Notes under the pieces: generated by a model
Told to the model about the DNA's origin: nothing
Database searches by the model: none
Seen by the model: the letters and a program-made list of their open reading frames with translations, nothing else
In this document: piece by piece, positions 1 to 12,635 of the stretch
Layout of the letters: each line of letters starts with the position of its first letter
Position numbering within the stretch: position 1 is the first letter of the stretch
NCBI GenBank assembly: GCA_013812995.1
Contig: JACCSL010000956.1
Coordinates: forward strand, 1 to 12,635
DNA: 12,635 nt
From: Ardenticatenales bacterium
Lineage (GTDB): Bacteria > Chloroflexota > Anaerolineae > Ardenticatenales > Ardenticatenaceae
Direction of reading: 5' to 3'
Position numbers and translations under genes: made by a program

Positions 1-14
1 AGTTAGGAGGAACT

Positions 15-416
15 ATGGCGCGTCAGCCAGCTAAACCACGTCGTGGTCAGCGCCGTCGCGAACGGAAGAATGTCCCGCATGGGCAGGCACATATCCATGC
101 GACGTTTAACAACACCATCGTCACGATTACCGACCAGCAGGGCAATACCCTCTCGTGGGGCTCGTCCGGTACGGTTGGTTTCAAGGGCTCTCGCAAGAGC
201 ACGCCCTATGCAGCGGGTCAGGCAGCGCAGGCCGCTGCTCGCTCTGCGCAGGATCATGGCGTCCGTGAGGTAGATGTCTTTGTCAAGGGCCCTGGCCCTG
301 GCCGCGAGCAGGCAATTCGCTCCCTGATGGGAGCCGGGCTGAAGATCGTTAGCATTACTGATGTAACACCAATTCCGCACAATGGGTGCCGTCCGCGCAA
401 GCGACGTCGCGTCTAG
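15..416 (+). CDS. rpsK: 30S ribosomal protein S11
   Basis: Small-subunit ribosomal protein of the platform, where it contacts 16S rRNA near the mRNA exit channel. The 133-residue length is normal for S11. The N-terminus is very basic (about residues 7-18), followed by the typical core [16 protein letters not shown] (about 25-40), the [14 protein letters not shown] segment and the family C-terminal signature [13 protein letters not shown]. The ATG is preceded by a perfect AGGAGG at 5-10. It is the first complete gene of a ribosomal superoperon whose upstream part (normally rpsM) lies outside the window. The stop is followed 18 bases later by rpsD. Identification is secure from the sequence alone. 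Confidence 0.98.
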
Positions 417-434
417 GAGAAGAGTCAGGAAAAC

Positions 435-1070
435 ATGGCCAGATATACCGATGCAGTCTGTAGGCTGTGCCGCCGTGAGGGGGAGAAACTCTTCCTCAAA
501 GGGGAACGATGCTTCAGTCCGAAGTGCGCTATTGAGCGCCGCCCCTATGTCCCTGGACAGCACGGCAAGAAGGGGACGTTCCGCCGCAAGATGAGTGATT
601 ACGGTTTGCAGCTCCGTGAAAAACAGAAGGCCCGCCGCATCTACGGTGTGCTGGAGCGACAATTCCGTCGATATTTCGAGGATGCGGTTCGCACTCCCGG
701 TCTTACAGGTGAGAACCTGCTCCGCGCTCTTGAACTCCGCCTGGACAATGTCGTGTATCGGCTTGGTTTTGCTGATTCGCGCGCCCAGGCCCGCCAGCTT
801 GTGAACCACGGCCACATCACGGTCAACGGTCGCAAGCTCGATATCTCCAGCGCTCTTGTTAGCGAGGGTGATGTGATTGGTATCCGCCAGCAGAGTGGGG
901 ACAAGCAGTACTTCAAGAACCTGTCCGAGACGATTGGACACCGCGCGATTCCCGCCTGGTTGACGGTTGATACGACCGCGCTGACGGGCAGGGTCATTGC
1001 GCTGCCCAACCGCACTGAGATTGATACCAGTGTGAATGAGCAGCTCATCGTTGAGTATTATTCGCGCTAA
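435..1070 (+). CDS. rpsD: 30S ribosomal protein S4, zinc-binding (C+) form
   Basis: Primary 16S rRNA-binding protein that nucleates assembly of the 30S body; in many bacteria it also represses its own operon. The protein has 211 residues, within the family range. Four cysteines near the N-terminus (C9, C12, C26, C31) form a C-x2-C-x13-C-x4-C zinc site, so this is the C+ paralogue type rather than the cysteine-free form. The S4 RNA-binding domain is seen at about residues 98-160 ([21 protein letters not shown], then [13 protein letters not shown]). A TCAGGA element at 425-430 precedes the ATG. A 92-base gap separates it from rpoA. Confidence 0.98.
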
Positions 1071-1151
1071 TAGCCAGTCAGTCGTAGTAAGAGGAATAAC
1101 ATTCAGTTGTCAGTGACCTGTTGTTGATGACACCTTGACCACTGGATAATT

Positions 1152-1157
1152 AGGAGG
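1152..1157 (+). promoter_or_regulatory. Shine-Dalgarno site that fixes the TTG start of rpoA
   Basis: A full AGGAGG lies five bases before the TTG at 1163. The encoded N-terminus (MDIVYPRIERD) matches where RNA polymerase alpha proteins begin, and no ATG lies in frame nearby. The site therefore supports a non-ATG start. Confidence 0.8.
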
Positions 1158-1162
1158 GTCAC

Positions 1163-2185
1163 TTGGACATTGTCTATCCGCGAATTGAACGAGACGTTAT
1201 TACACGCACCTATGGTCGCTTCATCATTCGGCCATTGGAGCGTGGCTACGGTATTACGGTTGGTAATGCCCTCCGACGTGTGCTACTTGGCTCTCTGCCG
1301 GGTGCGGCGGTAACCTCCATTCGCGTGACTGGCATTCATCATGAATTCAGCCCTATCCCTGGGGCCAAAGAGGATATGACGCAGTTGATCCTCAATGTGA
1401 AACAACTGCGCTTTAAACTCTATGGCGACGAGCCCGTTCGCATTCGTCTGAATGCTCGGGGGGAAGGCACAGTAAGTGCGGCAGATATCAACCTGCCCAG
1501 TCAGGTTGAGTTGATCAACCCTGAACTTCCACTCTTGACCCTGGACTCGGATGAAGCTGAAATCGAGGTAGAGATGACCATCCAACGTGGGCGAGGATAC
1601 TCGCCTGCTGACGAGCGTGGTCGCCTACCCATTGATGAAATTCCAGTGGACGCCATTTACAGCCCGATTCGCCGTGTCCGGTTCGATGTGGAGCGTGAGC
1701 GCTTTGATCTCGGCCGGGAGCGTCTGGGCTCGAACACGGATTATGATCGTCTAGTGCTAAGTGTCTGGACGGATGGCACGATGCGCGCGGATGAGGCGCT
1801 CAACATTTCATCGGATATTCTCGCGCGCCATTTCCATCTGACCTCCGCGATGGGAGATACCATCAGCGAGGTTGAGGTTGAGACGGTGGCGGAGGGAATC
1901 CCCGATATGATTGCGGATCGCCAAATAGAAGAACTTGGCTTACAGGTTCGTGCCTTTAATTGTTTGAAGCGGGCGGGTATTTCAACTATTGGCGAGGTAC
2001 TGGAGCGGCTTCAGAAGGGGCGAGACGAGATGCTCGCCATTCGTAACTTTGGCGAGAAGTCGCTGGACGAGTTGCTGGATGCCTTGAAAGAAAAAGGCTA
2101 TAGCGAATACCTCGAAGGTCTCGGCTACGACGAGCCCGCCCAAGGTGCCGAAGAAGAGGAAGCAGAGGAGGAAGTAGAAGCATGA
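1163..2185 (+). CDS. rpoA: DNA-directed RNA polymerase subunit alpha
   Basis: Alpha subunit of RNA polymerase. Its dimer scaffolds beta and beta', and its C-terminal domain binds UP elements and activators. The product has 340 residues, slightly long for the family. The N-terminal domain spans about 1-235, with the conserved dimer and assembly stretch LERGYGITVGNALRRVLLGS (about 25-44). The C-terminal domain spans about 250-312, with the helix-hairpin-helix stretch FNCLKRAGISTIGEVL and NFGEKSLDELLDAL. A very acidic tail (about 321-340, mostly Glu) ends the protein. Translation starts at TTG with an excellent ribosome binding site. The TGA stop overlaps the rplQ ATG (ATGA), suggesting translational coupling. 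Confidence 0.98.
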   Translation: MDIVYPRIERDVITRTYGRFIIRPLERGYGITVGNALRRVLLGSLPGAAVTSIRVTGIHHEFSPIPGAKEDMTQLILNVKQLRFKLYGDEPVRIRLNARGEGTVSAADINLPSQVELINPELPLLTLDSDEAEIEVEMTIQRGRGYSPADERGRLPIDEIPVDAIYSPIRRVRFDVERERFDLGRERLGSNTDYDRLVLSVWTDGTMRADEALNISSDILARHFHLTSAMGDTISEVEVETVAEGIPDMIADRQIEELGLQVRAFNCLKRAGISTIGEVLERLQKGRDEMLAIRNFGEKSLDELLDALKEKGYSEYLEGLGYDEPAQGAEEEEAEEEVEA

Positions 2186-2556
2186 GACACCGAATGAAGG
2201 GGCGTCACCTGAACCGCGATGCGGGTCATCGTCGCGCGCTTTATCGCAACCTGATCACCGATCTCCTGAAACGAGAACGGATTACCACCACCGAAGCCAA
2301 GGCCAAGGCCGTCAAGCCTCTGGTGGAGAAGCTCATCACCTCGGCGTGCCGGGTGCTGGATGCCCAGCCCGAGATTAAAGTGCACGCTCGGCGTGAGGCG
2401 CTGCGGACACTGACCGATAAGGATGTCATGTTCAAGCTCTTTGATGAACTGGCCGCCGACTTTGCTGATCGACCTGGTGGTTACACCCGAATTGTTCGTC
2501 TTGGCCCGCGACGTGGCGATGGTGCCGAGATGGTGATTCTGGAGCTGGTTGATTAA
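2182..2556 (+). CDS. rplQ: 50S ribosomal protein L17
   Basis: Large-subunit ribosomal protein located near the peptide exit tunnel. The 124-residue product begins MRHRMKGRHLNRDAGHRRALYRNL, the L17 N-terminal signature, which makes the first Met preferable to the one at residue 5. The C-terminal half ends with RIVRLGPRRGDGAEMVILEL, also typical. The ATG overlaps the rpoA stop by four bases. Its own end overlaps the TTG start of truA by eight bases, so three genes are read in a coupled chain. Confidence 0.97.
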   Translation: MRHRMKGRHLNRDAGHRRALYRNLITDLLKRERITTTEAKAKAVKPLVEKLITSACRVLDAQPEIKVHARREALRTLTDKDVMFKLFDELAADFADRPGGYTRIVRLGPRRGDGAEMVILELVD

Positions 2557-3319
2557 CCAAGAGCATTACAAAGCGACGATTGAATACGACGGCACGGATT
2601 TTTACGGGTTTCAGATACAGCCCGGCGTGCGAACCGTACAGAGTGAGTTGGAAACTGTCCTTTCTACCCTACAGGGTGGAGCACCCGTCAGGGCGCGAGG
2701 GGCAGGCCGGACGGATCGAGGCGTACATGCGACGGGCCAGGTGGTAGATTTTCATCTCTACTGGCAGAAGCATGAAGCGGCACTACAGCGATCAATGAAT
2801 GCTCTGCTGCCTGAGGATGTAGTGGTCCACGCGCTATCGCGGGTACCTGCCGAATTTCATTCTCGATATGACGCACTTAGCAGAACGTATCAATACACGC
2901 TGTACAACGCCCCTTATCGGCATCCCTTGTTACGCCGGAGTACCCTCTATGTGCCTTTTCCTCTGGACGAGGCAGCGATGGATGAGGGGGTCCGGCAACT
3001 GCACGGCGAACATGATTTTGCTGCGTTTGGGCGCGCAACCACGGACAGTGAAAATACCGTGCGTACCATGATCTCGTGTCGGGTGTGGCGTGAGGGAGCC
3101 CTGGTGAAGGTGGAGTTGCAAGCCACTGGCTTTCTATTCCGAATGGTACGCAGCATTGTTGGATGCCTCCTACTGATCGGGCGGAGCGAGCAATTACCCG
3201 CCTGGATGGAGGAATTATTGGTGTCAGGCAATCGGCAACTTGCTGCGACAGTAATCCCACCAACGGGTCTGTGCCTGATAGATGTCCATTACCCACACCT
3301 CCAAACCCCATTATCCTGA
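2549..3319 (+). CDS. truA: tRNA pseudouridine(38-40) synthase TruA
   Basis: Converts uridines 38-40 of the tRNA anticodon stem to pseudouridine, which stabilises the anticodon arm and reading frame. The product has 256 residues, normal for TruA. It opens with YKATIEYDGTDFYGFQ (about 7-22) and contains the catalytic motif GRTDRGVHATGQV, with the catalytic aspartate at D56. Later conserved parts are SRTYQYTLYN and FLFRMVRSIVG (about 194-205). The start is TTG: the family N-terminus lies directly at this point and the next in-frame ATG falls far inside the domain. A GGAG at 2541-2544 is rather close. Position between rplQ and rplM is a common bacterial arrangement. Confidence 0.96.
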   Translation: MINQEHYKATIEYDGTDFYGFQIQPGVRTVQSELETVLSTLQGGAPVRARGAGRTDRGVHATGQVVDFHLYWQKHEAALQRSMNALLPEDVVVHALSRVPAEFHSRYDALSRTYQYTLYNAPYRHPLLRRSTLYVPFPLDEAAMDEGVRQLHGEHDFAAFGRATTDSENTVRTMISCRVWREGALVKVELQATGFLFRMVRSIVGCLLLIGRSEQLPAWMEELLVSGNRQLAATVIPPTGLCLIDVHYPHLQTPLS

Positions 3320-3341
3320 GAAAATCATCCATTTTCTGAGG
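3315..3341 (+). other. Imperfect stem-loop between truA and rplM
   Basis: AGAAAAT (3319-3325) and ATTTTCT (3331-3337) are exact reverse complements around a 5-base loop. Three more pairs form outside a single G-G mismatch. The stem is AT-rich, starts inside the truA stop region and lacks a T-tract. It could be a weak attenuator, an mRNA processing site or part of the rplM leader; the sequence does not decide. Confidence 0.35.
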
Positions 3342-3392
3342 TCAGGGTAATAGATTGTTCGTTACAAAGAGAAGTTCTAAGGAGACGGAACG

Positions 3393-3821
3393 ATGAAAAC
3401 ATATTCTGCGAAACCCGCAGAGATTGAGCGCGACTGGTGGGTGGTGGATGCTAAAGGGCAGACGCTGGGTCGCCTTGCCAGCCGGATTGCTATGATTCTG
3501 CGGGGCAAGCACAAGGCTATCTTCACCCCCCATATTGATACGGGTGACTATGTCATCGTGTTGAATGCCGAGCAGATTCATGTCACCGGAGATAAAATGG
3601 ATGCGAAGATTTACTATCGCCATTCCGGGTATCCTGGTGGATTGCGGGAGCGTACGCTTCGGGAGCAGCTTCAGAAATTCCCCGAGCGCCCGATTGAAAT
3701 AGCGGTTAAGGGTATGTTGCCGAAAAACTCCCTTGGTCGCGCAATGCTTAAGAAGCTGAAGGTTTATGCTGGGACCGAGCACCCGCATAGCGCCCAGCAG
3801 CCAAAGACCTTGGAGTTGTAA
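3393..3821 (+). CDS. rplM: 50S ribosomal protein L13
   Basis: Early-assembling 23S rRNA-binding protein of the large subunit. The 142-residue length is standard. Recognisable stretches are [16 protein letters not shown] (about 15-30), the L13 core [22 protein letters not shown] (about 38-59), [10 protein letters not shown] and the C-terminal [20 protein letters not shown] followed by HPHSAQQP. The start is set by TAAGGAG at 3378-3384, eight bases before the ATG. It follows truA after a 73-base leader and is separated from rpsI by nine bases, the near-universal L13-S9 pair. Confidence 0.98.
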
Positions 3822-3830
3822 GGAGTCCTC

Positions 3831-4235
3831 ATGGCAGATAACGAAAATCGCTATTTCTACGCAGTTGGTCGGCGCAAGTCGGCATCGGCCCAGGTTCGCC
3901 TGTACCCCGAAGGGACTGGCCGAATCGTGGTCAATAACAAACCGGTTGACCGCTATTTCTCACGCGAGCAGGATCTGGTTACCCTCGCCAACCCGCTTCG
4001 TGCCGCCGGGCACGATGGCACCTTTGACATCACGGTTATGGTGCATGGTGGTGGGGTAACGGGCCAGTCCGAGGCCGTTGCCCACGGCATCGCGCGCGCC
4101 CTGTTGGTCTATGATGAGACGCTGCGCCCGACGCTGCGCCGTGGTGGCTTCCTGACACGCGATGCCCGCGTCAAGGAACGCAAGAAGCCCGGCCTCAAGC
4201 GCGCCCGCAAGGCCCCTCAGTACACCAAGCGCTAA
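3831..4235 (+). CDS. rpsI: 30S ribosomal protein S9
   Basis: Small-subunit ribosomal protein of the head, whose extended C-terminal tail reaches towards the P-site tRNA. The product has 134 residues. The N-terminal YFYAVGRRKSASAQVRLYPEGTG and central GGGVTGQSEAVAHGIARAL (about 74-92) are family signatures. The basic tail ends with the conserved APQYTKR. AGGAGT at 3821-3826 precedes the ATG. This is the last gene of the superoperon; a strong terminator begins 21 bases after its stop. Confidence 0.98.
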   Translation: MADNENRYFYAVGRRKSASAQVRLYPEGTGRIVVNNKPVDRYFSREQDLVTLANPLRAAGHDGTFDITVMVHGGGVTGQSEAVAHGIARALLVYDETLRPTLRRGGFLTRDARVKERKKPGLKRARKAPQYTKR

Positions 4236-4256
4236 TTCTTCCGTTTGGATCATGCA

Positions 4257-4289
4257 AAAAGGACCGCCCCGTGAAAGGGCGGTCCTTTT
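4257..4289. terminator. Bidirectional rho-independent terminator between rpsI and the convergent TMEM14 gene
   Basis: A perfect 13-bp stem, AAAAGGACCGCCC (4257-4269) pairing with GGGCGGTCCTTTT (4277-4289), encloses a 7-base loop. The + strand transcript ends in a U run, and the reverse strand has a run of five T after the same stem. It can therefore end both the ribosomal operon and the minus-strand operon that converges on it. Confidence 0.93.
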
Positions 4290-4311
4290 GTGTTGTAGCA
4301 GGCTGACTGGA

Positions 4312-4632
4312 TTATTTGGCGCGGATGGCACCGAGCAGTTCTATCCCCATTGCCAGCAGGCTGGTAGTTGCAATCATCCCGGCCGGCATTAGCTTGCCGG
4401 TTTTCTCGAAACGCCACCCCATCACCCCTGTCAGAATTGTGGCGATAAGTGCTCCCAACCCCAACCCCAGGCGAGGCATCTTGAGGCTTAGCACCGCGCA
4501 GAGAAGCGCCAGAATCCCGCTTCCTGCCCCTGCATAGAGCGAATCCTGGCTACCGCTCTGATAGCCTTTTACCCCTCCAAAGATCAGGATCAGGCCATAC
4601 AGCGGTAGAAACAGTTGAGCAAATTTTTTCAT
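4312..4632 (-). CDS. TMEM14 / UPF0136 family small membrane protein
   Basis: A small integral membrane protein of 106 residues with four hydrophobic segments at about 4-22, 31-50, 55-72 and 82-102. The family-like features are GGVKGYQSGSQDSLYAG near the first helix boundary and KLMPAGMIATTSLLAMG in the last helix, which resemble Tmemb_14 (UPF0136) proteins of cyanobacteria and eukaryotes. Functions proposed for eukaryotic members concern lipid or porphyrin transport; no function can be assigned here. AGGAGA (complement of 4641-4646) precedes the ATG. It lies 24 bases downstream of the UbiA-family gene, probably in the same transcript. Confidence 0.82.
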   Translation of the reverse strand: MKKFAQLFLPLYGLILIFGGVKGYQSGSQDSLYAGAGSGILALLCAVLSLKMPRLGLGLGALIATILTGVMGWRFEKTGKLMPAGMIATTSLLAMGIELLGAIRAK

Positions 4633-4656
4633 TGGATCAATCTCCTGTGTGAATGG

Positions 4657-5589
4657 TCAGACTCCAGCCGCCCGATTCCCAAAGCCATAGAGAATCAGGA
4701 TGACCGTAACGCCCCATAGGAAGGTCGTGATGAGCATGGGGCGGTCCTTGAACAGCATCTCATCGGGTGGGGCATCGTTTTCGGAGTGAACGAGATAAAG
4801 ATAGCGGAAAATGCCATAGATGACGAAGGGAATCGTCAGCATCATAGCGTGGTTGTCGGGAAGGCTCTCGGCTGTGAAAGTATAGATCGAATAAGCGATG
4901 ACAGTGCTAGCCGTCACCACACTGAGCATCTCTTCCAGCATGGGGGCGCTATACTCGGTTAGGACTTTCCGAAAGGCACCTCGCCCTTCCTCCAGCAGAT
5001 GCAACTCATGGCGGCGTTTGGAGATACCCAGGAAAAGCGCTAGGAGCACTGTGAGAACATAGAGCCACGGGGAAATCAACACACCGACTGCTACGGCACC
5101 CCCTACTGCGCGTAGGACAAAGCCTGCTGCGATGGAGAAGACATCCAGAATAACCATGGATTTGAGGATCCAGTTGTAGAGAAAATTGTTCGCTATGTAG
5201 AGCAACGCGACCGCCCCAAAGAGGGGAGCCAGGGTATAAGCGCTCAGGAGGCCAAGAGCAAGGATCAGGAGGAACGCTATCCGCGCCGTTGTCTCTGAGA
5301 GGCGACCCGAGGGAAGCGGGCGGTCGCGCTTGGTGGGATGCGCCCGATCCTTCTCAATATCTTTCAGATCGTTCAAGATATAGGCAGCGCTAGACATAAG
5401 ACAGAAGATCGCGAAGGCTGCCACCGCGCGCAGGATGGCATCGGGGTGCAGCGCCAGTCCCCGCTCTGAGAAGACAAGACCCCCAAACACAATGGCATTT
5501 TTAACCCACTGCTTGGGTCGCATGGTCTCCAGCAGCGCCTTCAGTTGCTCAAGTGGCATCGTCAGCGCCCTGTTTGTTTCGTGTTGCAT
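4657..5589 (-). CDS. UbiA-family prenyltransferase, decaprenyl-phosphate phosphoribosyltransferase-like
   Basis: Integral membrane enzyme of the UbiA superfamily. The closest recognisable type is decaprenyl-phosphate phosphoribosyltransferase (Rv3806c-like), which transfers phosphoribose from PRPP to a polyprenyl phosphate; in mycobacteria this feeds arabinan synthesis. It has 310 residues and about eight to nine hydrophobic segments. The first aspartate-rich motif is NDLKDIEKD (73-81), followed by the diagnostic HPTKRDRPLPSG (84-95). The second region has D149 in ILDVFSIAAGFVLRA, then SKRRHELHLL (190-199). The ATG has AAGGA six bases upstream on its strand; Met11 is an alternative. It is probably the first gene of a two-gene operon with the TMEM14 gene. 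The acceptor lipid in this organism is unknown. Confidence 0.88.
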   Translation of the reverse strand: MQHETNRALTMPLEQLKALLETMRPKQWVKNAIVFGGLVFSERGLALHPDAILRAVAAFAIFCLMSSAAYILNDLKDIEKDRAHPTKRDRPLPSGRLSETTARIAFLLILALGLLSAYTLAPLFGAVALLYIANNFLYNWILKSMVILDVFSIAAGFVLRAVGGAVAVGVLISPWLYVLTVLLALFLGISKRRHELHLLEEGRGAFRKVLTEYSAPMLEEMLSVVTASTVIAYSIYTFTAESLPDNHAMMLTIPFVIYGIFRYLYLVHSENDAPPDEMLFKDRPMLITTFLWGVTVILILYGFGNRAAGV

Positions 5590-5729
5590 ACGAATCCTTC
5601 ATATTAAACTCGCATCGAGACAAGCTATATTATTGGTAGTCATTGAGTGAGGGAAGGAGTATTCAGCCGGAAAGTTGCTGCTATCATAGCAGGAAAAAGA
5701 GCGAACCTCTAAATGGATATCCTTGAAAT
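5590..5729. other. Divergent intergenic region between the ubiA-like gene and tlyA
   Basis: About 140 bases, clearly richer in AT than the neighbours, between two genes pointing away from each other, so it must hold both promoters or leaders. Candidate -10-like elements are visible (TATATT within 5626-5631, TATCAT at 5682-5687), but no convincing -35 partner at normal spacing was found for either. It also contains a palindrome listed separately. Confidence 0.5.
5678..5692. promoter_or_regulatory. Perfect 15-base palindrome upstream of tlyA, candidate operator
   Basis: CTGCTATCATAGCAG has two 7-base arms that are exact reverse complements around a central C. It overlaps a TATCAT element and lies about 40 bases before the tlyA start. 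This layout would suit a dimeric regulator, but no regulator gene is nearby and the role is inferred only. Confidence 0.35.
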
Positions 5730-6539
5730 ATGGCAAAGAAACAGCGATTGGACCTTCTGGTAGTAGAGCGCGGGCTGGCTGAGAGCCGAACCCAGGCACA
5801 GGCGCTTGTGATGGCGGGTGAGGTGCGCGTCAATGGGGAAGTGGCGCGCAAGGCCGGACAGCAGGTGGATGCAGATGCACAGATCGAGGTGGCACGGCCC
5901 CTTCCCTATGTAAGCCGTGGAGGAGTCAAGTTGGAAGGAGCCCTGGCCGATTTCGGCTATGATCCAGCCGGGAAGCTCTGCGCGGACGTGGGTGCCAGCA
6001 CGGGCGGATTCACCGACGTTCTGCTACAGCAGGGCGCGGTGCGCGTCTATGCCATTGACGTGGGCTATGGGCAACTGGCTTGGAAGCTACGCCAGGATGA
6101 GCGCGTTGTTGTCATCGAGCGAACCAACGCCCGCCACCTGGACACGCTAGGCGAATCCATTGACCTTACCGTGATGGATGCCTCTTTCATCTCCATTGAG
6201 CTTCTTCTCCCTGCCATCGCCAAATGGCTCCGCCCGGCGGGCGATGTGATTACGCTGATCAAGCCGCAGTTCGAGGCAGGGCGGGAGGAGGTTGGCAAAG
6301 GGGGAGTGGTGCGGGATGCCGCCGTCCACGAGCGTGTCCTGACCGATCTGGTTGCCCATGTGGAGTCTCACGGCTGGACGGTGCGCGCTCTCACTGTGAG
6401 CCCCATTGCTGGACCGGCGGGGAACATCGAATTTTTCCTGTGGTTGGGCCTTGGGGTGGGGGAGCCTTATGATATGACTGAGGCTGTGAAGCGAGTCCTG
6501 GAGCGGGCGCAACAGATTCGCGGGGAGAGCCCTTCCTGA
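5730..6539 (+). CDS. tlyA: TlyA family 16S/23S rRNA 2'-O-methyltransferase (annotated also as hemolysin A)
   Basis: SAM-dependent enzyme that, in characterised members, methylates 2'-OH groups of cytidines in 23S and sometimes 16S rRNA. The 269-residue product has an S4-type RNA-binding domain (about 5-65: RLDLLVVERGLAESRTQAQA, then VMAGEVRVNG) and an FtsJ-like methyltransferase domain (about 66-245). The SAM-binding motif is DVGASTGGFTD (86-96). The K-D-K-E tetrad appears as K67, D150, K178 and E234, so the enzyme looks active. No good ribosome binding site precedes the ATG, so translation may be leaderless or weak. The gene is divergent from the ubiA-like gene. Confidence 0.95.
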   Translation: MAKKQRLDLLVVERGLAESRTQAQALVMAGEVRVNGEVARKAGQQVDADAQIEVARPLPYVSRGGVKLEGALADFGYDPAGKLCADVGASTGGFTDVLLQQGAVRVYAIDVGYGQLAWKLRQDERVVVIERTNARHLDTLGESIDLTVMDASFISIELLLPAIAKWLRPAGDVITLIKPQFEAGREEVGKGGVVRDAAVHERVLTDLVAHVESHGWTVRALTVSPIAGPAGNIEFFLWLGLGVGEPYDMTEAVKRVLERAQQIRGESPS

Positions 6540-6609
6540 GCCATGTCTCCTGTCCGGGAAACTGTGCCCTGATTGGGGTTTTGTGTCCCTCTCTGATAAG
6601 ATGGGAAGC

Positions 6610-6615
6610 TATACT
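6610..6615 (+). promoter_or_regulatory. Possible -10 element upstream of the TIM-barrel gene
   Basis: TATACT lies about 35 bases before the next gene. The nearest TTG-containing -35 candidate (6581-6586) is 23 bases away, longer than usual, so this is a weak call. Confidence 0.25.
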
Positions 6616-6647
6616 GGTGTTTTTAGCGGCGATATGACTAGAAAGTA

Positions 6648-7730
6648 GTGACTATGCCCTCTATCCATGTCGGTGTTGCCCTCTCTGATGCGAACCGTGC
6701 TGATCTGCCTACTGGATTGTGCATTCCTGAAAACCTGACGACCTATGCGGAGTCCTTCCGCGAGGCCCTGGGGGTCGAAACACCGTTTTTCGAGCTGCAA
6801 CCCAACGATCATTTCGTCCAGCCCGCCCGCTACCCGGACCAGTTTCGACTGAATCGGGACAACCGATGGCTCAATGCGGTCGAGTTTAACCAGGGCGTAC
6901 AGAGTTTCATTGACTCCAGGGCCCACCGTCTCGGGGTGCATCAACCCCTGCTCGGGGACATGCTCTCCAGCAACTTCTTCGGCAAGTACAGTGCTTTGGA
7001 AGAGGCTCGCCGGGCAATGGACTTCGCGAGTGGCATCGGCGCGGAATACTTTGTGATGCACCTGGCCTATGTGGACAAGTGGGATTGGGAGCGGAGCGAC
7101 CAGATCGACAAGGGGCTTAAGTTCTTCAAGGATATTGCAACGTACTATCGCTCCTATGGCTATCACTTTGTTCCCTGCATCGAGGTGTTGGAATACCCCA
7201 AGTTCCCTGCGACAGGGGGGGAATTGTGCTATATCATCAACGCCTGCCAGAAGGTGCTGCATGAGACCCGCATCGCTCTGAATGTGAGCCACCTGTGGCG
7301 CGCCCGCAACCTGATGCTTGCCACAGGCCATTGGGAAGATGCCAAGATTTCCTTTGTCCAGCATCTGGAATATACCCTGGCTCAATGCTGGGAGCAGATC
7401 CATGTATTCCAGTTGGGCGGATGCTGGGAATCCGAGACACACTCTGTGCCGGGCCTTCATCCGCAGCAGAACCCCTATGATCATCCCATGAAGCTTCGGG
7501 AGAGCACGGGTGTCTACCAAGAATCTGGCGAGATCGACCTGAATCGCACTCTGGATCTCCTCTTAGAGTACACCATCGACAAGGGACGAGACTTGAATCT
7601 CGTTCTGGAGATTCATGACCGGGACAGTGGGCAGGTCAACGAGGCGGCGCGGCTCATCCGCGATGACCTCCGTGCCCGCGTGGAAGAGCGCAGCCAGCGC
7701 GGCCCCTACACGCTAGGAAATGAGTCATAA
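6648..7730 (+). CDS. Xylose isomerase-like TIM-barrel protein, substrate unknown
   Basis: A 360-residue soluble protein that looks like the sugar phosphate isomerase/epimerase or AP-endonuclease-family-2 TIM-barrel superfamily. Candidate metal ligands and barrel-strand ends are H99 (RLGVHQPLL), H138 (YFVMHLAYVD), E179 (VPCIEVLEYP), H215 (ALNVSHLWRAR), H253 (QIHVFQLGG) and E321/H323 (LVLEIHDRD). This alternation of His and Glu/Asp at strand ends is typical of the fold, but I do not recognise a specific subfamily or reaction. The GTG at 6648 and the ATG at 6654 are almost equivalent starts, both with poor ribosome binding sites. It appears to be transcribed alone, between tlyA and the DUF151 gene. 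Confidence 0.7.
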   Translation: MTMPSIHVGVALSDANRADLPTGLCIPENLTTYAESFREALGVETPFFELQPNDHFVQPARYPDQFRLNRDNRWLNAVEFNQGVQSFIDSRAHRLGVHQPLLGDMLSSNFFGKYSALEEARRAMDFASGIGAEYFVMHLAYVDKWDWERSDQIDKGLKFFKDIATYYRSYGYHFVPCIEVLEYPKFPATGGELCYIINACQKVLHETRIALNVSHLWRARNLMLATGHWEDAKISFVQHLEYTLAQCWEQIHVFQLGGCWESETHSVPGLHPQQNPYDHPMKLRESTGVYQESGEIDLNRTLDLLLEYTIDKGRDLNLVLEIHDRDSGQVNEAARLIRDDLRARVEERSQRGPYTLGNES

Positions 7731-7788
7731 GTCCTACTCCCCGAGAGCAAAAGTGCTTTTTCCGGGTGGATGATGGCACGTAATTAGC

Positions 7789-7818
7789 TTGTCTGTGACG
7801 CACCGGCTATGTTATACT
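7789..7818 (+). promoter_or_regulatory. Sigma-70-type promoter of the DUF151 nuclease gene
   Basis: TTGTCT (7789-7794) as -35 and TATACT (7813-7818) as -10 are separated by 18 bases. TG one base before the -10 gives an extended -10 element (TGTTATACT). Transcription would start near 7825. This is the best promoter in the window. Confidence 0.7.
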
Positions 7819-7876
7819 CTTTAACATTCACTGGGGAGTGGCTCAGAAACGACCCATCGAGATAGGCAGGGAGTGT

Positions 7877-8374
7877 ATGGTACGCGTCACGATCGATAGT
7901 ATCCGTGTGAGTTTGATATCGCCCCAACGCATTGTCGTACTACGGGAAGAAGATGGAGAGCGACATGTTCCCATCTGGATCGGTCCCTACGAGGCCGAGG
8001 CGCTGACGCTCAGCCTGCGCGGAACCAGCGTGGTACGCCCGCTCACGCACGACCTACTGAAGAATATGATTGATGCGCTCGGTGCCACCGTCTCGCACAT
8101 CGTCATCAGCGACCTCCGCGAAGAAATCTTCTATGCCTCCATCGTTCTGGACCTGGATGGCAAGATTATCGAGGTTGATGCTCGCCCCAGCGATGCCATC
8201 AACTTGGCGGTACGAACCAGCGCCGCCATCTTCATTGCTGAGCACGTTCTGGAAGAGGCCAAGGTTATCCCCGAGGCAGGCATCGACGAGGCAAGCCCCG
8301 AAGAAGATGAGAATCTCTCTGTGTTTGCCGATTTCCTCGAAAGCCTGGACCTTGACGACCTCGGCGACGAATAA
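7877..8374 (+). CDS. DUF151 / bifunctional nuclease domain protein
   Basis: Belongs to the BFN (DUF151) family, for which a plant member was reported to have both RNase and DNase activity; the bacterial role is poorly known. From the ATG chosen here it has 165 residues. Typical parts are MVRVTIDSIRVSL (1-13), HVPIWIGPYEAEAL (30-43), RPLTHDLLKNMI (54-65) and the signature DARPSDAINLAV (101-112). The C-terminal 30 residues are strongly acidic; no UVR motif follows. The reading frame extends up to a GTG at 7838, but the family N-terminus and AGGCAGG at 7864-7870 favour 7877. It is flanked by its own promoter and terminator, so it is probably monocistronic. Confidence 0.9.
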   Translation: MVRVTIDSIRVSLISPQRIVVLREEDGERHVPIWIGPYEAEALTLSLRGTSVVRPLTHDLLKNMIDALGATVSHIVISDLREEIFYASIVLDLDGKIIEVDARPSDAINLAVRTSAAIFIAEHVLEEAKVIPEAGIDEASPEEDENLSVFADFLESLDLDDLGDE

Positions 8375-8402
8375 ATAGTCTGCCCTCCATACTCGCCTCG
8401 TC

Positions 8403-8440
8403 GGGGCGCGGCAGCGAACTTTCGCTGGTCGCGCCCCTTT
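8403..8440 (+). terminator. Rho-independent terminator after the DUF151 gene
   Basis: GGGGCGCG (8403-8410) pairs with CGCGCCCC (8430-8437), and the inner arms CAGCGAA (8412-8418) and TTCGCTG (8421-8427) pair fully, with only a G versus GT bulge between the two helices. The T-tract is short (TTT, then GT), but the stem is very stable. It separates the nuclease gene from the dnaB cassette. Confidence 0.82.
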
Positions 8441-8476
8441 GTCCTGAAAGCCACGTTCAACAACCTGCATCTCTAT

Positions 8477-8502
8477 CTGTCACCGACTGTCACTTCTGTC
8501 GC
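8477..8502 (+). repeat. Three helically spaced CTGTCRC repeats before dnaB
   Basis: CTGTCAC at 8477-8483, CTGTCAC at 8487-8493 and CTGTCGC at 8496-8502 start 10 and 9 bases apart, about one DNA turn, in the same orientation. They lie directly before the dnaB ribosome binding site. They could be binding sites for a regulator or replication protein, or a chance run; no function is known. Confidence 0.4.
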
Positions 8503-8519
8503 AAGGAGTTCCACGACTC

Positions 8520-10433
8520 ATGGCCTCACCGATGGACCGTCCTCTACCCTACAACGTGGAGGCAGAAGAAGCTGTTCTAGGTTCTCTCATGCTGGACCCA
8601 GATGCCCTCTCGCGTGTGATTCCCTTCCTCAAGAAGGAGGATTTCTACCGTGAGAAGCATCAGTGGATCTATGAGGTGCTCGTCACCCTGCACTCCCGCA
8701 ACGAGCCTGCCGATCCCGTCACGGTAGTGGACGAGATGGACCGTCAGGGGCGGCTGGGCGATGTCGGCGGCCCGGCGGCCATCTCCGAGATTATGCTGCG
8801 CGTACCCACGGCCATCCATGTGGAGTACTATGGGCGCATCGTGGAGCGCAACGCGGTGCTGCGCCGGCTCATCGGTGCGGCGGAGAAGATTGCGCGGCTG
8901 GCCTACGAGGAGAGCGACAAAGAAGTTAGCGAGATCATCGAGCGGGCCGAGCGCGAGTTGTTCGCGGTGAGCCAGCATCGCCTCTCGGGCGCGATGGTTC
9001 CCATCAAGGATATTCTGGGCGAGTTCTACGAGCAGGTCGAAGAGCTATTCATGAACCGCCAATTGGTGGGACTCCAGACGGGCTTTACCGATTTGGACCG
9101 ACTTCTCGGCGGCTTCCAGGCAGGCGACCTGATTATTCTCGCCGCGCGACCCAGCATTGGCAAGAGCGCCCTTGCGCTTTCCATCGTCGAATCCGCCGCG
9201 ATCAAGCATGGTGCCCGAATCGCGGTCTTCTCCCTGGAAATGGGCGTGGACCAGTTGGCGCAGCGCCTCATCTCCTCGCAGACAGGCATCGATGCGCAGC
9301 GCCTGCGCGTCGGCCCCATCTACGAGGAGGACCTGGAGCGCGTGGGCTTCGCGGTGGAGGTCCTCGGCAAGACCCGCATCTTCGTGGACGAGAGCCCCGC
9401 TGTGACGCCGATGGAGATTCGGACCAAGCTGCGCCGCCTCGTCAGCGAGTACGGGTTGGATATGGTCGTCATCGACTATCTCCAGCTCATGTCGGGCGGC
9501 AAGGGCAATGAGAATCGCGTGCAGGAGATTTCCTACATCTCACGCGCGCTCAAGGAGCTGGCTCGCGAACTCAAGGTTCCGGTCCTCGCCCTCTCGCAGC
9601 TCTCGCGCAGTGTCGAGAGCCGCCAGGACAAGCATCCCCTGCTGAGCGATCTCCGAGAATCTGGATGTTTGGCAGGTGAGAGTCTCGTTACTCTTGCAGA
9701 CAGTGGAATGCACGTACCCATTCGCGATCTCGTGGGACAATCTGGTTTTGCCGTGTGGGCCTTGAACGAGGAAACATGGAAGCTGGAGCGGGCTAATGTT
9801 AGCCGAGCCTTCTCTACTGGTGTAAAAGCTGTTTTCCTCCTTAAAACTCAATTAGGGCGCACGATTCGCGCCACTGCCAACCACAAATTTCTGACGATTG
9901 AGGGATGGAAGCGACTGGATGAATTGGATCAGGGGAGTCCCATAGCCCTTCCGCGCAGTTTGCCGAGCCCTACTCTGCAATTTGCACAGGTCACCAGAGG
10001 GGCTACAACAGGGAGCCAAATTTCCCCAACCATCGCCTTTGAAGAGCTAGTGATTTCCGATCAGGGAGAAGTTGGTTGGGACGAGGTGACCCTGATTGAG
10101 ACTGCTGGCGAAGCAGAGGTGTATGATCTAACGGTGGATGAACTCCACAATTTTATTGCGGACAACATTGTGGTTCACAACAGCATTGAGCAAGATGCGG
10201 ACGTGGTGATGTTTATTTACCGCGACGAGGTGTACAACAAGAACACGGACCGTCCGAACATCGCCGAGGTCATCGTTGCCAAGCACCGTAACGGCCCCAC
10301 GGGAGCCGTGGACCTGCGCTTTACCAGGGAGAATGCGAAGTTCACGAACCTGGAAACCTTCTATGCCGACGACGATGACTACGGCCCACCCCCCGCGCCT
10401 GTCGAGGCGGGATTCGATGATATTATTTTCTAG
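8520..10433 (+). CDS. dnaB: Replicative DNA helicase DnaB precursor, interrupted in frame by an intein
   Basis: Hexameric 5'-3' helicase that opens the replication fork and binds primase. The precursor has 637 residues: the extein comprises residues 1-382 and 555-637 (465 in total, normal for DnaB) and the intein 383-554. The N-terminal domain (about 5-105: LPYNVEAEEAVLGSLMLD) binds primase. The RecA-like domain shows LQTGFTDLDRLLGGF (185-199), Walker A ARPSIGKS (209-216, K215), the FSLEM motif and Walker B MVVIDYLQLM with D319. After splicing, DLRESG joins SIEQDADVVMFIYRDE. AAGGAG at 8503-8508 precedes the ATG. The gene heads a cassette with a DnaD-like and a DnaC-like gene. Confidence 0.97.
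   Translation: MASPMDRPLPYNVEAEEAVLGSLMLDPDALSRVIPFLKKEDFYREKHQWIYEVLVTLHSRNEPADPVTVVDEMDRQGRLGDVGGPAAISEIMLRVPTAIHVEYYGRIVERNAVLRRLIGAAEKIARLAYEESDKEVSEIIERAERELFAVSQHRLSGAMVPIKDILGEFYEQVEELFMNRQLVGLQTGFTDLDRLLGGFQAGDLIILAARPSIGKSALALSIVESAAIKHGARIAVFSLEMGVDQLAQRLISSQTGIDAQRLRVGPIYEEDLERVGFAVEVLGKTRIFVDESPAVTPMEIRTKLRRLVSEYGLDMVVIDYLQLMSGGKGNENRVQEISYISRALKELARELKVPVLALSQLSRSVESRQDKHPLLSDLRESGCLAGESLVTLADSGMHVPIRDLVGQSGFAVWALNEETWKLERANVSRAFSTGVKAVFLLKTQLGRTIRATANHKFLTIEGWKRLDELDQGSPIALPRSLPSPTLQFAQVTRGATTGSQISPTIAFEELVISDQGEVGWDEVTLIETAGEAEVYDLTVDELHNFIADNIVVHNSIEQDADVVMFIYRDEVYNKNTDRPNIAEVIVAKHRNGPTGAVDLRFTRENAKFTNLETFYADDDDYGPPPAPVEAGFDDIIF
9666..10181 (+). other. DnaB mini-intein (172 residues, no endonuclease domain)
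   Basis: A self-splicing protein insert at the conserved site DLRESG / SIEQDAD, which is also used by the Synechocystis and Rhodothermus DnaB inteins. It starts with Cys (C383, block A CLAGESLVTLADSG), has block B GRTIRATANHKFLTIEGWKRLDEL with the catalytic TxxH (T452-H455), block F EVYDLTVDELHNFIADNIVV with D536, and ends with His-Asn (H553-N554) followed by Ser as the +1 nucleophile. All splicing residues are present, so it should be active. Only about 60 residues separate blocks B and F, far too few for a LAGLIDADG endonuclease. From memory the N-terminal block resembles that of Rhodothermus marinus. GC is about 51%, against about 68% in the extein rows 9241-9420. Confidence 0.93.
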
Positions 10434-10444
10434 GCATTACCACC

Positions 10445-11155
10445 ATGAAGGGCTTTGCGGGCTTCCCTGGGGGGCCAGTGCGTTTCACCGCCGTACCAGA
10501 CCTGTTCTGGGCTGAGTTGCTGCCCCAGATTGACGATCTGGCCGAACTCAAGGTGACGATGCACTGCATCTGGCGGCTCTACCGCAAGACGGGTCCCCTA
10601 CGTTACCTGAGCCACGAGGAGCTGCTCCAGGATGATGTGTTGATGGAGGGGCTGCGCGTTCCGGGTCTTCCCCCGGCGCGGGTGCTGGAGGAGGCAGTGG
10701 CGCGGGCCACCACGCGCGGCTCGTTGCTGCGCGTCGATGTGGCGCTGGAGGGGCAGAGCGATGTGTGGTACTTCGTGAACACGGCGCGCGCCCGCCGCCT
10801 CGTTGGCCAACTCCGGCGCGGCGACCTGCTCCCCGAGAGCATCGTGCAGCCCATCGAGCCCGTGGCACTTCCCCAGGTGCGGCCCACGGTCTTTACCCTC
10901 TACGAGCAGAATGTGGGGCTCTTGCAGCCCATCATCGCCGAGGAGCTGCGCGAGGCGGAGCGTGTTTTCCCCAGTGAGTGGATCGAAGATGCCTTCCGCG
11001 TCGCAGCGGAGCGGAACATTCGGAACTGGCGCTATATTCGCTCGATTCTGGAGCGGTGGGCGCAAGAAGGACGAAACGATGGACAACCTCAACGACAGTC
11101 TCAAGCGCGTCGTCCGGCAAGTACGCGACGGCGCTTCCTCGACGAACTGGAGTAA
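10445..11155 (+). CDS. DnaD-like replication initiation protein
   Basis: A 236-residue protein with a C-terminal DnaD_2/DnaB_2-type domain at about 148-207: TVFTLYEQNVGLLQPIIAEE, then WIEDAFRVAAERN and the signature YIRSILERW with Y197, I201 and W205. In Bacillus, DnaD remodels DNA and helps DnaB/DnaI load the helicase. The N-terminal part (about 1-120) is probably a winged-helix-like domain, as in DnaD proteins, but I see only weak support. The basic tail after residue 208 lies within the overlap with the next gene. It starts 11 bases after the dnaB stop without a clear ribosome binding site. Confidence 0.85.
   Translation: MKGFAGFPGGPVRFTAVPDLFWAELLPQIDDLAELKVTMHCIWRLYRKTGPLRYLSHEELLQDDVLMEGLRVPGLPPARVLEEAVARATTRGSLLRVDVALEGQSDVWYFVNTARARRLVGQLRRGDLLPESIVQPIEPVALPQVRPTVFTLYEQNVGLLQPIIAEELREAERVFPSEWIEDAFRVAAERNIRNWRYIRSILERWAQEGRNDGQPQRQSQARRPASTRRRFLDELE
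11067..11071 (+). promoter_or_regulatory. Ribosome binding site that places the loader start inside the DnaD-like gene
   Basis: AAGGA (within AAGAAGGA) lies seven bases before the ATG at 11079. It favours this start over a much longer reading frame that opens at 10803 and reads through the DnaD-like gene in another frame. The N-terminal cysteine cluster lies after this ATG. Confidence 0.65.
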
Positions 11156-12509
11156 GGCACCCGTGCCAGAGAGCGTATGCCCCATCTGCCGGGGCGCGGG
11201 CTTCGTCCGGCGCAACCTGCCGCCGGGTCATCCCCAGTTTGGGCGCGCGATGGTGTGTGAGTGCTCCAAGACAGATTTGCAGAAGCGGCAGCAGCGCCGC
11301 CTTTACCAACTCTCGAACCTGGGGATGCTGGCGCGCCTGACCTTCGAGAGCTTCGTGCCGGAAGGGTACGGCCTTGATCCCTCCCGGCAGGAGAATCTCC
11401 AGCGCGCCGTGAACTTTTGCCACAGCTATGCCGAGCGGCCCGATGGCTGGGTGGTGCTGATGGGAAGTTATGGTTGTGGCAAGACGCACCTCGCCGCCGC
11501 CATTGCCAATCATCGTATCGCGCAGGGCATGCAGCCCCTCTTCGTGGTGGTGCCCGACCTGCTGGACCACCTGCGCGCCACCTATGGTCCCAACAGCGAG
11601 GTCGCGTATGACGAGCGTTTCGCGCAGGTACGCAACGCCCCGCTGTTGATTCTGGACGATCTTGGCACGCAGGCGGCAACCCCCTGGGCGCAGGAGAAAC
11701 TTTTTCAGATTTTCAACCATCGCTACAACGCGCAGCTCCCCACGGTCGTCACAACGAATCAATCGTTGGAAGAGCTGGACATCCGCATCCGGTCGCGGCT
11801 GGTGGACCCGGAGATCAGCCAACTGGTCACGATTCTCGCCCCGGACTTCCGGCAGAGTGGGGTCGAACAGGGGTCCAGCGATCTCTCCGCCCTCCCGCTA
11901 CTCTCCCACCTGACCTTTGAATCCTTCAGCCTGCGCGCGCTGGAGCTGAGCGAGGTCGAGCGGGAGCGGCTGCGGCAGCATGTCAACACCAGTCGCCGCT
12001 TCGCGCAGGAGCCGAGCGGCTGGCTCGTACTGGTGGGCGATTACGGGGTGGGCAAGACACACCTGGCAGCAGCCATTGCCAACGCGCAGCAGGGGCGGGG
12101 CCAGCAGGCGCTGTTCATCGTCGTGCCTGACCTACTCGACCATCTGCGTGCCACCTACAACCCGCAGAGCAGCGTTTCCTATGACAAACGCTTTGAGCAG
12201 ATTCGGCGCTCGCCCCTACTCGTGCTCGATGACCTTGGCACCCAGAGCGCCACGCCGTGGGCGCAGGAGAAGCTCTTTCAACTCTTTAACTTCCGCTACA
12301 TGGCGCGCCTCCCGACCGTGATTACGCTCAACAACATCGACAGCGTGGAGCCTCGCCTGCTGGAGCGGATGATGGAAATGAAAGTGGTGGGGCTGGGTAG
12401 TATGCTGGAGGTGCGAGTGCCACCCTTCCGGGGGCGTGGGGCCTCGGATAGTGGGAACGGTGGGCGACTACGCGGCGGACGGCGGCGCGATAACGAAAAC
12501 AACTGGTAA
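11079..12509 (+). CDS. Tandem-duplicated DnaC/IstB-like AAA+ ATPase, putative helicase loader
   Basis: A 476-residue protein with two AAA+ modules of the DnaC/DnaI type, which in related systems load DnaB onto DNA. An N-terminal cysteine cluster C34-x2-C37 ... C60-x-C62 suggests a zinc ribbon. Module 1 (about 87-255) has Walker A GSYGCGKT (K135), Walker B LLILDD (D193, D194), sensor 1 N227 and the arginine-rich RIRSRL (236-241). Module 2 (about 278-450) has GDYGVGKT (K326), LLVLDD (D384, D385), N418 and PRLLERM. The modules match at a constant 191-residue offset, about 76 of 107 residues over 123-229. A Gly/Arg-rich tail follows 450. Usual DnaC-type loaders have about 250 residues and one module. 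The start overlaps the DnaD-like gene by 77 bases. Confidence 0.85.
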   Translation: MDNLNDSLKRVVRQVRDGASSTNWSKAPVPESVCPICRGAGFVRRNLPPGHPQFGRAMVCECSKTDLQKRQQRRLYQLSNLGMLARLTFESFVPEGYGLDPSRQENLQRAVNFCHSYAERPDGWVVLMGSYGCGKTHLAAAIANHRIAQGMQPLFVVVPDLLDHLRATYGPNSEVAYDERFAQVRNAPLLILDDLGTQAATPWAQEKLFQIFNHRYNAQLPTVVTTNQSLEELDIRIRSRLVDPEISQLVTILAPDFRQSGVEQGSSDLSALPLLSHLTFESFSLRALELSEVERERLRQHVNTSRRFAQEPSGWLVLVGDYGVGKTHLAAAIANAQQGRGQQALFIVVPDLLDHLRATYNPQSSVSYDKRFEQIRRSPLLVLDDLGTQSATPWAQEKLFQLFNFRYMARLPTVITLNNIDSVEPRLLERMMEMKVVGLGSMLEVRVPPFRGRGASDSGNGGRLRGGRRRDNENNW

Positions 12510-12635
12510 GCTCGACTTTATCCATTGGTAGTCCAACATCGTACATTTTCTAGTTGTCCCAGTCCCACAAGTTTCGAGGGAATGGGGAAACATTCTTGGT
12601 CATCAGGAAATGAGCTGATCCATCTCCATCGACGA

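Follow-up and report, generated by a model that had tools for sequence, protein, structure and literature searches.

A putative DnaI-like helicase loader of the Chloroflexota with two AAA+ modules behind a single Cys4 domain

How would a helicase loader work if two of its AAA+ modules were joined in one chain? The question is raised by a gene on contig JACCSL010000956.1 of an Ardenticatenales bacterium (Chloroflexota, class Anaerolineae; assembly GCA_013812995.1), of which positions 1 to 12,635 were analysed; this whole stretch of 12,635 nucleotides is called the window below. The gene encodes a protein of 476 residues with one Cys4 motif followed by two complete AAA+ modules of the DnaC/DnaI type. 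Characterised DnaC and DnaI loaders have one AAA+ module per chain. The reading that we consider probable is that the protein is a DnaI-like chromosomal DnaB loader whose tandem-doubled module amounts to a covalent DnaI dimer, with three chains per DnaB hexamer. The parts of the gene are listed here; counts of conserved residues refer to 116 loci, called near loci, of which 50 come from the window's class or its own genome and 66 are of Chloroflexota type by record name.

11079..12509, + strand: putative two-module helicase loader, 476 amino acids, ATG start (open reading frame translation; two stretches each in Pfam and NCBIfam)
11067..11071, + strand: AAGGA, Shine-Dalgarno-like, ending 7 bases ahead of the ATG (sequence)
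11178..11264, + strand: Cys4 motif CPIC...CEC, residues 34-62, probable zinc-binding helicase-binding domain (sequence, alignment of 110)
11328..11882, + strand: AAA+ module 1, residues 84-268 (module hidden Markov model, HMM, 300 bits)
11901..12458, + strand: AAA+ module 2, residues 275-460 (module HMM, 276 bits)
11463..11489, + strand: Walker A of module 1, GSYGCGKTH (sequence)
12036..12062, + strand: Walker A of module 2, GDYGVGKTH (sequence)
11757..11759, + strand: sensor-I Asn N227 of module 1 (Asn in 114/116 near loci)
12330..12332, + strand: sensor-I Asn N418 of module 2 (Asn in 7/116 near loci)
11784..11798, + strand: Arg coupler R236 and Arg finger R240 of module 1 (Arg in 116/116 and 115/116 near loci)
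12354..12368, + strand: Arg coupler R426 and Arg finger R430 of module 2 (Arg in 101/116 and 105/116 near loci)

Both modules are complete in sequence, with the Walker A lysines K135 and K326 and the Walker B acids D193-D194 and D384-D385. The names of the Arg coupler and Arg finger follow from alignment to R216 and R220 of E. coli DnaC in the available text of PMC8213410. The loop of module 2 is one residue shorter in this region than that of module 1, and 16 residues remain after module 2. In the predicted model the N-terminal part holds a helix and the Cys4 segment (C34, C37, C60, C62); in an alignment of 110 sequences each of these cysteines is conserved at 90% or more, and 95 sequences have the strict CxxC...CxC pattern. 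The model has a mean predicted local distance difference test (pLDDT) score of 89.4 and a predicted template modelling (pTM) score of 0.70, so the placement of the parts is less sure than the residues within them. Residues 79-259 match structures of DnaC, DnaI, IstB and DnaA by VIA-align, which re-examines Foldseek's own matches and covers only the families that Foldseek listed.

The family assignment is consistent with a loader. PF01695 (IstB_IS21) matches the protein in two stretches with 129 bits in total, and the AAA+ domain of DnaC/DnaI proteins (AAA-CI, PF01695) is present with its Walker A and B motifs, sensor I and Arg finger; the number of modules per chain lies outside the PF01695 definition used in PMC5109545, and it is there, with two modules, that the window protein departs from the characterised loaders. 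The subfamily model PRK08116, named 'hypothetical protein', gives 236.2 bits over two stretches at a cut-off of 189, a score that the sum over two modules helps. The protein stays below the cut-offs of the DnaI equivalog PRK08939 (147.6 bits vs 228), the DnaC equivalog PRK07952 (121.5 bits vs 357) and the IS21 helper NF038214 (145.4 bits vs 200). Assignment to the initiator DnaA was rejected: the helix-turn-helix domain PF08299 is absent among the best 25 of 28 Pfam rows, only the 16-residue tail follows module 2, and the same genome encodes a separate DnaA with PF08299.

The position of the gene points in the same direction. In the window it lies downstream of an intein-containing dnaB and of a DnaD/DnaB_2-family gene, overlapping the latter by 77 bases.

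8520..10433, + strand: replicative helicase DnaB with intein (PF03796, PF00772, PF14890)
10445..11155, + strand: DnaD/DnaB_2-domain primosome gene (PF07261 35 bits, TIGR01446 40 bits)

Upstream sequence of 1.5 kb or more is available for 89 distinct two-module loci, of which 82 have an adjacent DnaD relative, 79 have DnaB within 3 kb and 72 have both (94, 91 and 83 of 102 when repeated sequences are counted); the corresponding numbers for 23 single-module loci are 20, 14 and 13. Moreover, in five relatives longer than 564 residues a DnaD-type protein is fused ahead of the two-module loader. The matches to DnaD-type proteins are long in P0242, P0243 and P0246 and partial in P0245 and P0248, and PF07261 was present in all three fusions checked. 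These fusions support a physical link between the two proteins. No member of the DciA family was found in 26 genomes (the window's own and 25 relatives) by a search that was positive in 7 of 14 control genomes. Conserved context and a missing dciA (0/26 genomes) are also the properties by which resident genes are recognized in the available text of PMC5109545. In the window's genome, which is 84% complete, the sole further match is DnaA. Primosomes composed of DnaB, DnaD and DnaI are well established. Taken together, the place after dnaB and a DnaD-type gene, the DnaD fusions, the lack of DciA matches and this knowledge of primosomes indicate that the two-module protein is very probably the chromosomal DnaB helicase loader; the helicase-loader type proposed in the initial annotation is supported.

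The intein of DnaB occupies window positions 9666-10184 (~170 residues, about residues 383-555). Splicing models match both of its ends, and it is seemingly too short to hold a homing endonuclease domain.

The architecture is widespread. In a set of 60 genomes comprised of the window's own and 59 relatives, both modules lie in one frame in 50, including G023 and G031 with one in-frame TAG inside the match, and in G038 the modules are split across two contigs. The nine genomes without a two-module match include five with a single-module form (G006, G009, G017, G046, G052) and four with weak or fragmentary matches only (G010, G030, G049, G053). The double module, which the initial annotation had left as either lineage-wide or unique, is spread across the lineage and not confined to one genome. 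In the window's class, 368 of 396 genomes match at 1e-15, single-module matches included. Phylum-wide the count is 239 of 400, so close relatives are missing from many Chloroflexota. A four-module query finds matches at 1e-70 in 242 of the 323 genomes in G644's class, those listed extending over roughly two modules. The collected set holds 209 loci, 208 of them with a module: 183 are two-module (152 distinct, 31 being repeats of counted sequences) and 25 single-module. This set is biased towards two-module forms, as it consists mostly of best matches to a two-module query, with 20 single-module loci added deliberately. Single-module loaders occupy the same locus in several other families of the phylum. 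In some of them (L180, L181 and L186, also L184 and L185) the Cys motif is preceded by a long N-terminal stretch of low complexity, as in proteins named Ktedonobacteraceae. Two further loci, L195 and L196 (genomes G059 and G054), are extra single-module copies beside a two-module loader with no DnaB or DnaD found nearby; they are perhaps carried on a mobile element.

Why, then, are the two modules of the window protein so alike? In a gap-free self-comparison at offsets 20-399, 104 identities occur at offset 191, against 40 at the runner-up offset, and residues 123-229 and 314-420 are identical at 76 of 107 positions. The two full modules, their offset and this count, all given in the initial annotation, proved exact on recount. 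Over whole modules the identity is 52.5%. At the DNA level, 212 of the 321 bases of the core block are identical, with 81, 89 and 42 of 107 at codon positions 1, 2 and 3. The value for third positions means that silent sites keep little trace of the shared origin while the protein is conserved. In the same block, module 1 of the window protein is 71.7% identical to its own module 2, 70.2% on average to module 1 of other species and 66.4% to their module 2. Judging by these comparisons, the modules resemble each other through slow evolution of the core.

The trees indicate that the doubling is not a recent event. In a FastTree analysis of 346 modules, 115 of the 116 near-locus module 1s fall in one clade (support 0.73) and 115 of the 116 module 2s in another (0.86), both clades with modest support and with some rows from outside the near loci mixed in. 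A mixture-model tree of 76 modules unites the 16 module 2s of the class in one clade with 99 in the Shimodaira-Hasegawa-like approximate likelihood ratio test (SH-aLRT). The module 1s of the class are not one group in this tree (4 changes, on weak branches; three stand with single modules at support 0), which is a quick tree that calls for caution about long-branch meeting. Neither of two constrained trees is rejected by the approximately unbiased (AU) test, one joining modules 1 and 2 of the class in a clade (p 0.93) and one joining every module 2 (p 0.96); in both tests the constrained tree beat the free tree, so the free search had missed it. Among the 152 distinct two-module loci, only 6 have their own module 2 as the module 2 nearest to module 1. 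Identity averages 51.0% within and 49.6% across chains, and 56.4% among module 1s and 54.2% among module 2s. A four-point test on 6441 pairs from 114 near loci gives a within-chain excess of 0.9 percentage points, positive in 68%, which is a weak trace at most. On this evidence the doubling of the AAA+ module is old, with the single N-terminal Cys4 domain left undoubled, and both one and two origins are compatible with the data.

The initial annotation had explained the likeness by recent origin or gene conversion. This explanation is not supported: the tree of separate modules, which it had itself named as a check, places module 1s and module 2s largely in separate clades, the core identities are close (71.7% vs 70.2%) and the four-point excess is 0.9 points. 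For the window gene, recent duplication or conversion is ruled out by the third codon positions, the separate clades, the 6 of 152 nearest own modules and the small four-point excess. An assembly artefact, which would have undone the observation, is likewise excluded there by the third positions (42/107) and the occurrence of the architecture in many other genomes. Replacement, loss and re-duplication of modules seem to occur in a few other lineages. The modules of L156 are sisters with 71% identity; L136, L165 and L170 have a module 2 that clusters among module 1s; of the single modules, L205 clusters with module 2s and L204 with module 1s.

The two modules have diverged in a systematic way. 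Among the near loci, the Walker A lysine is kept in all 116 module 1s and all 116 module 2s. Module 1 retains the second Walker B acid and the Arg coupler in all 116 loci and the Arg finger in 115; the corresponding counts for module 2 are 114, 101 and 105. At the positions aligned with the four residues by which DnaC contacts single-stranded DNA (ssDNA), like residues are kept in both modules. The sensor-I Asn, in contrast, is present in 114 of 116 module 1s and in 7 of 116 module 2s. Six of these seven carriers make up the whole of the window's family as represented here, and in the seventh, L109, module 2 groups with loci outside the class. The initial annotation was thus correct in placing this Asn in both modules of the window protein, a condition unusual for the family as a whole. 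Single modules keep the Asn in 24 of 25 cases; the two modules contrast little beyond the class (21 of 36 module 1s, 15 of 36 module 2s). According to the available text of PMC8213410, the sensor-I substitution N203A in E. coli DnaC abolishes the ATPase and is most impaired in loading, whereas a Walker A mutant loads like wild type. Given this precedent, module 2 of most near relatives is expected to be a poor hydrolyser: it should bind ATP and DNA and give its finger, and should hydrolyse poorly. Both sites may be active in hydrolysis in the family of the window protein.

Chains longer than two modules also exist. According to the module HMM, ten of 351 proteins collected from three protein searches (350 matches listed plus the query, with P0001 and P0002 being the window's own; one search gave the best 120 of 148 matches in a length window of ~565-1797 residues) carry at least three modules. 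Three modules are found in P0068, P0237, P0238, P0239 and P0240, of which P0068 and P0237 begin inside a module, four in P0004, P0171, P0235 and P0236, and six in P0122; Pfam finds six stretches of PF01695 in P0122, four in P0236 and three in P0239. Each of the eight complete long chains has one Cys4 motif, near the N-terminus. Their modules before the last are 80-86% alike in P0171, P0235, P0236 and P0238-P0240 and 51-77% in P0122 and P0004, and the last module is 27-44% identical to the earlier ones. In P0122 and P0004 the last module groups with near-locus module 2s and is without the sensor-I Asn. For P0171 and the P0235 group, the tree puts the earlier modules among module 1s of loci outside the class, and for P0236 and P0240 among single modules; the last modules of all these have no clear tree placement. 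Several expansions thus seem to have taken place, most of them through extra copies of the front module type. P0068, whose middle module is near module 2s, and P0237, whose last two modules are the most alike (66%), break this pattern. In the related chains P0235, P0238 and P0239 (4, 3 and 3 modules) the second Walker B acid is Gly everywhere and the Arg coupler is lost; these chains perhaps no longer hydrolyse ATP, so not all long chains need be active ATPases. The ten long chains are known as protein records, from one or two contigs each, and assembly error is possible in individual cases. No locus with more than two modules was among the matches listed for a six-module query in the 396 genomes of the class, nor among those listed for a four-module query in 323 genomes of another class.

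These observations bear on how the protein would assemble on DnaB. In the available text of PMC3791466, DnaI sits on DnaB as three dimers, and the two monomers of each contact the helicase differently. One helicase-binding domain followed by two unequal modules is the expected look of a fused DnaI dimer, which favours three chains. The built-in ATPase dimer and trimer of dimers suggested in the initial annotation would fit this published arrangement. The two modules would then lie side by side as the covalent form of this dimer, three chains would together form the loader on one DnaB hexamer as a ring or open spiral of six modules, and three helicase-binding domains would replace six. Module 1 would be the main ATPase, and module 2 its fixed partner that senses ssDNA and gives a finger, retaining ATP binding, the Arg finger and the ssDNA-contact residues. 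Each chain of three, four or six modules would supply a longer arc of the ring. Four-module chains are difficult for any simple division of six. A more far-reaching and less likely reading is that in Chloroflexota a self-assembling loader oligomer has become a concatenated AAA+ array of fixed order, with one Cys4 domain, n modules of one type (usually n = 1, but 2, 3 or 5 in the eight long chains that are complete) and one differently evolving closing module. P0122 could in that case be a whole loader ring or open spiral in one polypeptide and so a counterpart, in bacteria, of dynein or midasin. Its degenerate closing module would then sit at the spiral's open end, lacking a neighbour to complete its ATP site. 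Were this array real, loading would need far fewer than six helicase contacts, perhaps one.

It is unlikely, in our view, that module 2 is an accessory arm, with six chains bound 1:1 to DnaB, the module 1s forming the ring and module 2 lying outside it in a regulatory or ssDNA-binding role. The drift of module 2 at sensor I and the Arg coupler would suit such an arm, as would the single-module loaders that work without it at the same locus elsewhere and a pTM of 0.70 that leaves module placement open. However, module 2 keeps the Walker A lysine (116/116), the Walker B acid (114/116) and the Arg finger (105/116), which would be needless outside a ring, and the modules of P0004, P0122 and P0171 follow one another at a near-fixed spacing of 188-199 residues. 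These longer chains also argue against the main geometric rival, a p97-like double ring, in which six chains per hexamer would stack six module 1s on six module 2s. Two AAA+ modules per chain are indeed the type II AAA+ architecture, and the best Foldseek E-values for the whole model belong to NVL and p97 chains; yet the root-mean-square deviation from these is 8 to 19 Å over the whole chain, in a model with unsure module placement, and VIA-align scores two-module chains no better than AAA matches of one module; a double ring is judged improbable. That the protein is a DNA-dependent AAA+ helper of some other process, such as IstB-like transposition or repair, is highly improbable: it has PF01695 in common with IstB, and the single-module extras L195 and L196 do stand apart from any DnaB or DnaD found, but the usual place after dnaB and dnaD, the DnaD fusions, the lack of DciA matches and a score of 145 bits at an IS21 helper cut-off of 200 all oppose this view. 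Finally, recent internal duplication, gene conversion or assembly error retains a practically negligible probability as the source of the 76 of 107 identical core residues and of the 0.9-point four-point excess, set against 42 of 107 identical third positions, largely separate clades and 6 of 152 module 1s nearest to their own module 2.

A loader of this type matters beyond its own lineage. The number of loader ATPases at work on each DnaB ring, and the need for every one of them to hydrolyse ATP, are hard to test with single-module proteins, where mutant and normal subunits mix randomly; a fixed module order with one changed catalytic site makes the question testable. A natural series in which one helicase-binding domain is followed by 1, 2, 3, 4 or 6 modules would challenge a required 6:6 ratio of loader to helicase chains, and the old fused architecture may set the number of motors per helicase-binding domain, in a group without DciA found in 26 genomes. 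The loader function is known. Apparently undescribed are the fused architecture, the systematic change of module 2 and the chains that reach six modules: by titles and abstract openings, in a literature scope with subscription papers and preprints mostly outside it, no two-module or longer DnaC-type loader was found.

The DciA paper, in its available text, reports one resident dna[CI] domestication in Chloroflexi from a data set with Anaerolinea, Chloroflexus and Dehalococcoides (PMC5109545). The window loader is very probably this same domesticated gene; the doubling goes unmentioned in the main text by word search. The DnaC-type chain P0122 invites comparison with dynein and Rea1/midasin, which likewise have six AAA+ modules in one chain (PMC4047620, PMC11603028). 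The window loader differs from the IS21 helper IstB in scoring below the IS21 helper cut-off and in its upstream neighbours, dnaB and a dnaD-type gene. IstB has one module, and dynein and Rea1/midasin are eukaryotic and belong to other AAA+ clades. With E. coli DnaC the protein shares alignable Walker A and B motifs, sensor I, Arg coupler, Arg finger and ssDNA tetrad positions, whereas DnaC has a single module per chain and another N-terminal domain; the N-termini of DnaI and DnaC are non-homologous, and the N-terminal zinc fold of DnaI binds DnaB (available text of PMC3791466). The protein resembles Bacillus DnaI, the best match in the Protein Data Bank (PDB) being 4m4w: both combine a DnaC-type AAA+ module with an N-terminal domain that binds zinc and the helicase in DnaI and probably does so here through the Cys4 motif. 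DnaI works with primosome proteins of the DnaD/DnaB_2 type. It carries one AAA+ module per chain, where the type described here has two, and rarely three, four or six, per N-terminal domain.
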